Assembly: GCA_016195265.1 (NCBI GenBank) | Contig: JACPZW010000014.1 | Location: 1-64,000 of the forward strand | Source: Acidobacteriota bacterium | GTDB lineage: Bacteria; Acidobacteriota; Vicinamibacteria; Vicinamibacterales; CAVVIG01 | Direction: 5' to 3' | DNA length: 64,000 nucleotides | Shown: one piece after another, positions 20,756 through 31,076 of the stretch | Position numbering within the stretch: the first letter of the stretch is position 1 | Layout: every line of letters begins with the position of its first letter | Translations under genes and position numbers: made by a program | The notes under the pieces: generated by a model | The model's input: the letters and a program-made list of their open reading frames with translations, nothing else | Told to the model about the DNA's origin: nothing | Database searches by the model: none

Positions 20756-20810
20756 TCGATGTGCTCCCTGTAACGTGGTCGCGCGGGCGTCGTCGCCCCC
20801 GGGACGTAGC

Positions 20811-20831
20811 GCAGGCCTTCAGGCCTGCCGA
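20811..20831. repeat. ACGTAG-linked hairpin GCAGGCC ttca GGCCTGC
   Basis: gacgtagcgcaggccttcaggcctgcc directly after the ftsA stop. Confidence 0.8.
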
Positions 20832-22941: not shown

Positions 22942-24443
<1,502 letters not shown>

Positions 24444-28506: not shown

Positions 28507-29592
28507 TCACCGCAATTTCAGCGTCGCCAGACTGAACAACGCGAAGATGATCCCGACGATCACGAACCGCGAAATCACCTTCGGCTCGCTCCACCCGATC
28601 TGTTCGAAATGGTGATGGAGCGGCGCCATGCGGAATACGCGGCGGCCGGTCATCTTGAACGACGCGACCTGGACGATCACGGACGCCGCTTCGAGCACGA
28701 ATACGCCGCCGACGACGGGCAGCAGCAGTTCCTGTTTGATGAGAATCGCGACGGTGCCGAGCGCGGCGCCGAGCGCCAGCGATCCGACGTCGCCCATGAA
28801 GATTTCGGCGGGGTACGAGTTGTACCAGAGGAACCCGAGCGACGCGCCGACGAGCGATCCGCAGAAGACCGTGAGCTCCGCGACGCGCGGCAGGTGGACG
28901 AGCAGCAGGTACTCGGCGAAGACGCGATGGCCGGTGACGTAGGCGAGCGCCGTATACGCGCCGGCGGCGATCGCAAACGTGCTGATCGCCAGGCCGTCGA
29001 GCCCGTCGGTCAGGTTGACGGCGTTCGACACTGCCACGAGCACGAGGACCGCGAACGGCAGATAGCCCCAGCCGAGATCCGGAATCAGGCGCTTGAAGAA
29101 CGGGAAGATCAGCCGCGTGCTGTAAAGACCTTCGTGCTGCAGCCACAGCAGGACGACGCCGACACAGATGGCGATCAGCACCTGCAGGCCCATCTTGTAC
29201 CGGGGCAGCAAACCGTGATGCGATCGCCGGACGACTTTCAGATAGTCGTCGGCGAACCCGATCCCGCCGTACCCCGCTGTGGTCAGCATCGCGATCCACA
29301 CATAGACATTCGAGAGATCCGCCCACAACAACGTCGGCACGAGCGCCGCCGTCAGAATCAGCAGGCCGCCCATCGTCGGCGTGCCGGCCTTGGCGCGATG
29401 CGATTGCGGGCCCTCGGCGCGAATGACCTGGCCGATCTGGAACTCGCGCAGCTTGCGCACCATCCACGGCCCGAACGCCAGGCTGATCGCGAGCGCCGAC
29501 AGGCTCGCCGCCGCCGTGCGGAACGTGATGTACTGCGTCACGTTCAGCACCGAGATCTGCGTGTGGAACTGGAACAGCAGCCGGTACAGCAT
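28507..29592 (-). CDS. mraY: phospho-N-acetylmuramoyl-pentapeptide transferase
   Basis: KAGTPTMGGLLIL, FADDYLK, NAVNLTDGLDGLA, MAPLHHHFE. Confidence 0.96.
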   Translation of the reverse strand: MLYRLLFQFHTQISVLNVTQYITFRTAAASLSALAISLAFGPWMVRKLREFQIGQVIRAEGPQSHRAKAGTPTMGGLLILTAALVPTLLWADLSNVYVWIAMLTTAGYGGIGFADDYLKVVRRSHHGLLPRYKMGLQVLIAICVGVVLLWLQHEGLYSTRLIFPFFKRLIPDLGWGYLPFAVLVLVAVSNAVNLTDGLDGLAISTFAIAAGAYTALAYVTGHRVFAEYLLLVHLPRVAELTVFCGSLVGASLGFLWYNSYPAEIFMGDVGSLALGAALGTVAILIKQELLLPVVGGVFVLEAASVIVQVASFKMTGRRVFRMAPLHHHFEQIGWSEPKVISRFVIVGIIFALFSLATLKLR

Positions 29593-31076
29593 CAGCCGCG
29601 CCCCGCCGTCAGCCGTTCCACGACGCGATCCGTCTTCACCCCGCGCGATCCCTTCACCAGCACGAGATCGCCGCGCCTGACGAGCGCCGCGGCCGCCTCG
29701 GCCGCCTCGTCGCTCGTCGCAAAGTGCCGTACCGCCTCGCGCGCCAGCCCGGCGGCCCGCGCCGCGTCGGCCAGCGCCCGCGCCGCGTCGCCGCCGACCG
29801 CGAACAGCACGTCGACGTTCGCCTTGGCAGCCGCGCGCCCGACGTCTTCGTGCCGCGCGACGGCGTGCGAACCCAGCTCGAGCATCTCGCCCAGGACGGC
29901 GATGCGCCGGCCGGCCTTCGCATGCGCCAGCACGTCGAGCGCGCGCGCCGTCGCGGCCGGGCTCGCGTTGTAACTGTCGTCGAGCACCGTCACGCCGCTT
30001 GCCAGCCGCACGACTTCTCCACGATGCCGCGCGGCCCGCAATGTCGACGCCCGCGCCGCGATGGCGTCGAGGGGCACGTCGAACTCCGTCGCGACCGCCG
30101 TCGCGGCGAGAATGTTCGCGAGGTTGCCCCGACCGACGAGCGGCGTCGTGATGTCCACGCTCCCGCGCGGCGTAGTCACGCGCGCGCCGATTCCGTCGAT
30201 CCCTCGATCCACGATTGCCGACGCTTTCACGTCGGCCTCTCGATCGATCCCGAACGTCACCGTGCGGCCGGGAAACGACCCGATGTGCGCCATCACGCGG
30301 TCGTCGTCGGCGTTGGCCACCAGCCGCGTGGACACGCCGGCGCCTTCGAGAATCTCGGCCTTCGCGTCCGCAATGGCGTCCACCGACGCGAAGAAGCCCA
30401 GATGCGCGTCGCCGACGTTCGTCCACACCCGCACGTCCGGCTCAGCGACGTTGACGAGCGTGCTGATTTCCCCGGCGTGATTCATGCCCAGTTCGACGAC
30501 GGCGATCTCCGGCCGCTGTGTCAGCTCCATGAGCGACAGCGGCAACCCGATGTGGTTGTTGAAGTTTCCGCGGTTGCGGATCACGCGATACCGCGCCGCG
30601 AGAAACTCCGCCGCAATTTCCTTCGTCGTGGTCTTCCCGGCGCTGCCGGTAATGGCCACGACCTTCGTGCCCGACGCCCGCCGCACCGCGCGGGCCAGCG
30701 CCTGCAACGCACGCGTCGTGTCGTCGACCTCGATGACGACCGGCGCAACTCGTGGGGGCGGAGCTTGCTCCGCCCCGAGGGCCGACCAAGGTCGGCCCCT
30801 ACCCGGCACGACGACGCCCGTCGCGCCCGCGTCGACCGCGGCCAGCGCGAAATCCGCGCCGTCGAACCGCTCGCCGCGGATGGCGACGTACAACTCGCCG
30901 GGCTTCAGCGTCCGCGAGTCGATCGACACACCGGCAAATTCGCGTGCCGCGTCGCCGCGCACGATCTCGCCCGCCATCGCCGCCGCGATCCACGCGGCGT
31001 GGAGCTGGAGGGCGTTTCCTTCCGGACCGGCCGTTGAGCCGGGTCCAAAAGGACCCGGCTTACGTTCGTCGGTCAT
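29592..31076 (-). CDS. murF: UDP-N-acetylmuramoyl-tripeptide--D-alanyl-D-alanine ligase
   Basis: AITGSAGKTTTKEI, ELGMNHAGEI, LDDSYNASPAA. Confidence 0.95.
   Translation of the reverse strand: MTDERKPGPFGPGSTAGPEGNALQLHAAWIAAAMAGEIVRGDAAREFAGVSIDSRTLKPGELYVAIRGERFDGADFALAAVDAGATGVVVPGRGRPWSALGAEQAPPPRVAPVVIEVDDTTRALQALARAVRRASGTKVVAITGSAGKTTTKEIAAEFLAARYRVIRNRGNFNNHIGLPLSLMELTQRPEIAVVELGMNHAGEISTLVNVAEPDVRVWTNVGDAHLGFFASVDAIADAKAEILEGAGVSTRLVANADDDRVMAHIGSFPGRTVTFGIDREADVKASAIVDRGIDGIGARVTTPRGSVDITTPLVGRGNLANILAATAVATEFDVPLDAIAARASTLRAARHRGEVVRLASGVTVLDDSYNASPAATARALDVLAHAKAGRRIAVLGEMLELGSHAVARHEDVGRAAAKANVDVLFAVGGDAARALADAARAAGLAREAVRHFATSDEAAEAAAALVRRGDLVLVKGSRGVKTDRVVERLTAGRG
30750..30804. 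repeat. two adjacent hairpins inside murF coding sequence
   Basis: GGGGCGGAGcttgCTCCGCCCC and GGGCCGACCaaGGTCGGCCCCTAC. Confidence 0.95.
31034..31060. repeat. hairpin GCCGGGTCCaaaaGGACCCGGC-TTACGT at murF N-terminus
   Basis: Direct reading. Confidence 0.88.

Follow-up and report, generated by a model that had tools for sequence, protein, structure and literature searches.

The murF gene of this acidobacterium contains, in frame, two inverted REP units. We interpret them as a REPIN/BIME-like doublet of a dispersed REP family that was mobilised by a RAYT transposase and kept in loops tolerant of additional residues, and we assign this reading a probability of about 0.86. The pair belongs to a family with many copies in the genome, the Mur ligase domains around it are intact, and the same loop is occupied by other repeats in relatives. 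The analysis was based on the window, a stretch of 64,000 nt that includes murF, on the draft genome from which it was taken (G000) and on genomes of relatives.

The inserted pair in murF

A cluster of cell wall genes is located on the minus strand of the window and includes murF (29592..31076, minus strand), which encodes a UDP-MurNAc-tripeptide--D-Ala-D-Ala ligase of 494 aa. The gene was assigned by TIGR01143 and three Mur ligase Pfam domains. A profile search against TIGR01143 yielded 396 bits (cut-off 289), and a genome search revealed this copy as the only full-length murF match (n=1). Re-reading of the sequence confirmed that two hairpins lie back to back within murF, with the place, translation and flanks given in the preliminary description. 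The unit GTGGGGGCGGAGCTTGCTCCGCCC (30752-30775, plus strand) carries the head GTGG in place of GTAG, and the unit GTAGGGGCCGACCTTGGTCGGCCC (30779-30802, minus strand) has an intact GTAG head. Both belong to family c and are oriented tail to tail, separated by the 3-nt spacer CGA (30776..30778). Each unit of 24 nt consists of GTRG and a 20-nt palindrome with perfect 9-bp stems, the stems of the two units being unlike (GGAGC and CGACC). The complete pair comprises 51 nt, equivalent to 17 codons in frame, and corresponds to about residues 92-109 of MurF. As RNA, the 51-nt insert has a predicted fold of -38 kcal/mol.

Additional units were found in the same window. One family c unit is located in the final codons of the murC ORF (22956..22979, minus strand) and two are located at the 3' end of murC (22996..23019 and 23032..23055, both plus strand). 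The hairpins at 22952-23056 had been described as the same as those in murF; they are indeed three members of the same family, but not identical copies, as stems and loops differ. A unit of family d, GTAAGCCGGGTCCTTTTGGACCCGGC (31038..31063, minus strand), falls within the initial codons of the murF ORF and is read KPGPFGPG; its translation would hinge on which start codon is the true one. Five family d units (GTAGGGCGGGTCCTTTCGGACCCGCC) are arrayed every 36 nt at 1813-1982 on the minus strand. Another GTAG hairpin, GTAGCGCAGGCCTTCAGGCCTGC, is positioned directly downstream of ftsA (20806-20828, plus strand) and is also present in an M20 peptidase loop of the relative G002.

Dispersal of family c and the RAYT genes

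Using the full-unit pattern of family c, GTAGGGGCNGANCNNGNTCNGCCC, we detected 52 exact 24-nt copies in the 4.5-Mb genome and 0 with the reversed control. If mismatches were allowed, the pattern matched 139 times genome-wide; among the matches listed for the fetched stretches there are at least about 109 units in at least 68 clusters, distributed over many contigs. The 68 listed clusters consist of 33 single, 29 double and 6 triple ones. Tail-to-tail neighbours form 22 pairs among the matches listed, with spacers of 2-8 nt in 19 of them. Within the window, the stem pattern with up to two mismatches gave 7 matches compared to 1.1 expected, a number reached by 0 of 100 shuffles, and five perfect stem matches were found at 22956, 23000, 23036, 30756 and 30779. 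Alternatively, the two hairpins could have arisen by chance from G+C-rich coding sequence, with the loop being an ordinary linker. The MurF loop is poorly conserved in any case, which would suit this explanation, but it is refuted by the copy number, with exact copies absent from the reversed control and a window count beyond that of every shuffle, and its probability is next to nil.

Upstream of GTAG, the base at position -1 is C in 80% and the base at position -3 is G in 58% of the cases. Since this preference is alike for in-frame copies and other copies, it looks like a preference of the target or the terminus and not like a codon effect. In the mechanism that we propose, REP units would be mobilised as single-stranded hairpins by RAYT, an HUH tyrosine transposase, and would land 3' of GNC.

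A genome search revealed one Y1_Tnp gene in G000 (L099:1953-2429), which was assigned as RAYT by the NCBIfam equivalog NF047646 with 114 bits (cut-off 80). This gene of 158 aa is part of a REPtron (L099:1550-2580, on G000:C37), in which about twelve units of family d flank the gene on its two sides. The RAYT genes of G017 and G001 are flanked by family a, and one in G012 lies between family b units. In the loci examined of the 91%-complete G000 assembly, family c is not accompanied by a RAYT. Family c may be mobilised in trans, or by a RAYT that was lost or is absent from the draft. In G017, 16 family a cores are arranged in tandem with exact 36-nt steps (G017:C1:153409-153968).

In-frame copies and the same sites in relatives

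Using a codon-usage score trained on eight ORFs of the window together with domain matches, 21 clusters were scored in frame. Because about 20 of these are located inside conserved genes, the MurF insert is one instance of a habit of in-frame REP insertion throughout the genome. Judged by homology and conserved domains, the putative hosts include the repair-type proteins UvrA, AddA, an AddB-like nuclease, a LigD phosphoesterase and an MrfA-like helicase. Further predicted hosts are HscA, PFOR, two AMP ligases, an ABC exporter, a protein kinase, an M20 peptidase, a radical SAM protein, a penicillin amidase, GT87 and others. Within the gene of the ABC exporter (G000:C50:45213-45339, L076) a REP half-unit is repeated in tandem and RAEQAL is read several times.

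The VGAELAPP phase (phase 0) is used by 17 of the 19 forward units (binomial p 0.0004). The phase with TAG is used by 0 forward units; this absence is at least in part given by construction, unlike the 17 to 2 split. Given how common GNC codons are, the preference upstream of GTAG would probably bring forward units to codon boundaries. Such an element would be easily tolerated, as its units are 24 nt long and five of the six frames stay open.

That an assembly or binning artefact put the repeat into murF is very improbable. The genome is a draft (91% complete, 87 contigs) and repeats are able to break assemblies; however, the frames are open across about 20 genes and usual sequencing reads are longer than a REP unit. 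In addition, family c recurs in independent genomes at the HscA, AddA and AMP-ligase sites, and in the case of HscA and AddA this includes G017, a member of a different genus.

Alignment of the MurF family showed that the loop from VVVP to VVIEVDDTT comprises about 9 to 35 residues, with about 9 aa in the E. coli enzyme. The preliminary description had regarded a conserved segment of equal length in orthologs as evidence against an insertion; the loop at this place is variable and non-conserved. With a dispersed GTAG-REP family, a single full-length MurF and a variable ortholog loop, the claim of a REP insertion in frame in MurF holds. Among the relatives compared, no ortholog has an empty site with the exact MurF flanks. 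Because the linker minus 51 nt would be shorter than that of any relative, the original loop residues were probably in part replaced or lost, in contrast to a clean insertion of 51 nt.

Four different dispersed repeats occupy the MurF loop in five species of four genera (G000, G001, G012, G017 and G019). Family a is present in the loops of the congener G001, whose MurF shows 84% identity, and of G017, with 163 and 279 genome matches, respectively. The loop of G019 contains CCCTTCGACAGGCTCAGGG (59 genome matches) and that of G012 a 74-nt element with 36 further genome matches. A nested insertion in the G012 loop was considered and discarded, as the dispersed element also spans the flanking family-a-like ends. 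The loops of G004, G014, G015 and G016, which represent other genera, are short and contain no REP recognised by alignment, copy number aside.

It is conceivable that the loop encoded by the REPs, or the hairpin pair in the mRNA, tunes activity, binding or translation of MurF and that the repeats are kept for this reason. The repeat-occupied loops of the five species, the predicted fold of the insert RNA and the family c copies at the HscA and AddA sites of another genus would be in line with such a function. But sequence, length and family vary among relatives, so that the place recurs and the sequence does not, and the four short loops lack a recognised REP. We consider a function of this kind improbable; most likely MurF gains nothing useful from the insert. 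According to our preferred reading of a doublet kept in a tolerant loop, intragenic REPs would be kept solely in loops that can take up 8-30 additional residues, and the MurF loop would be such a place, like some 20 others in G000.

The site alignment with G001 revealed that 9 of 20 orthologous sites hold a REP, eight of them of family a (GTAGCGCGAGSCTTTCAGSCGAGCG) or b (GTGGCGTCCGGCTTCAGCCGGAC) and one of family c; site C23 was excluded from this count because a reliable match was not found in G001. The 20 sites contain 12 units and the remaining 68 kb of the loci 15, while the reversed control gave 0. Compared to the 9 sites seen with a REP, about 0.44 were expected, and the Poisson p of about 1e-9 assumes uniform density and ignores selection, so that it indicates strong enrichment and not an exact probability. 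At C31, C21, C3 and C7:21739 the loops of G001 are shorter and no unit was detected. With strict patterns, 3 of 12 orthologous sites in G002 and 3 of 11 in G017 were positive, and some of the family c copies that these two genomes have at G000 sites may be shared by descent. In the sampled stretches of G001, 5 of 29 clusters were scored in frame, which is too few for a reciprocal search toward G000. In G002, a further repeat (around CCTCCGCTGACGCTNCGGCGAGGCTCGCCGAAGCGC) is shared by loops of PFOR and DUF1223 (L190 and L201), which correspond to REP sites in G000.

Loop tolerance alone may be insufficient for the 9 of 20 shared sites, and another attractor, namely old REPs serving as targets, may be needed. 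In this refinement an old REP in a loop draws new ones, so that one ancient insertion per loop followed by family turnover, with one family replacing another or stacking on it, would account for the pattern. Several observations point in this direction: 35 of the 68 listed clusters contain two or three units, other families occur at the orthologous G001 sites far over expectation, and, by eye, a degenerate family-a-like stretch ends the loops of G007 and G019. On the other hand, a flanking remnant of an older unit is not provable in the MurF loop of G000, where degenerate matches are weak, and much the same pattern would be expected from selection for tolerant loops. We regard the refinement as possible, with the odds somewhat against it. 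Another reading, which we put forward tentatively and think rather unlikely, is that in conserved proteins of these acidobacteria certain fixed loops are inherited as landing sites, on which unrelated REP families succeed each other, the same codons being hit again by target choice beyond selection. If true, the loops would record past REP invasions.

Relation to known elements

GTAG REPs, their link to RAYT and intragenic in-frame copies, including those in DNA-repair genes, have already been described (PMC3733652, BMC Genomics 2013 14:522). In the sections of that paper used for comparison, the in-frame hosts are uvrA, recBCD, helicase and ligase genes and dimers encode 20-30 aa. For recB, the same sections give a single case in which different REPs sit at nearly one position, in X. 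campestris and X. oryzae; elsewhere the sites differ. The elements of G000 resemble the GTAG REPs of these sections in the GTAG head followed by a palindrome, the dimers and the in-frame copies; a link to a RAYT flanked by the same REPs is seen for families a, b and d. Their length is in the range of 20-40 bp, one of the murF units has GTGG in place of the GTAG present in the 52 exact units, and they are dispersed at high copy. They differ from the REPs in these sections in that a congener has REPs at 9 of the 20 sites, 8 of them of another family, and in having MurF as a host.

Like REPINs and BIMEs, the elements occur as two inverted REPs with a short spacer (3 nt in murF) and are dispersed as pairs. 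Unlike these, many units in G000 are single, the murF pair mixes two stem variants, and the loci examined yielded no RAYT beside family c. The preliminary description had drawn a parallel to the palindromic elements of Rickettsia (RPE). This parallel is valid for the outcome, as in both cases palindromes appear to be inserted in frame in genes for conserved proteins; it does not extend to the elements themselves, which are GTAG REPs and belong to a class that has RAYT transposases of its own. RPE-4 and RPE-6 are classified as CGTC-tagged REPs in the corresponding section of PMC3733652, whereas the units of G000 start with GTAG or GTGG, without a CGTC tag, and are found in Acidobacteriota. The G000 elements are analogous to the Rickettsia elements, not members of them. 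They represent a known kind in another phylum, and what goes further is the more extensive re-use of the same sites.

As in the reports on other phyla, the hosts include DNA-repair proteins. In addition, the gene of an essential cell wall enzyme of a soil acidobacterium hosts a mobile hairpin pair, in a loop that was hit several times across relatives. The data set at hand bears on the protein positions that tolerate insertions and on REP target choice versus selection in retention. Throughout a bacterial family, short transposon-linked hairpins rewrite the loops of housekeeping enzymes, and sister species serve as natural replicates.
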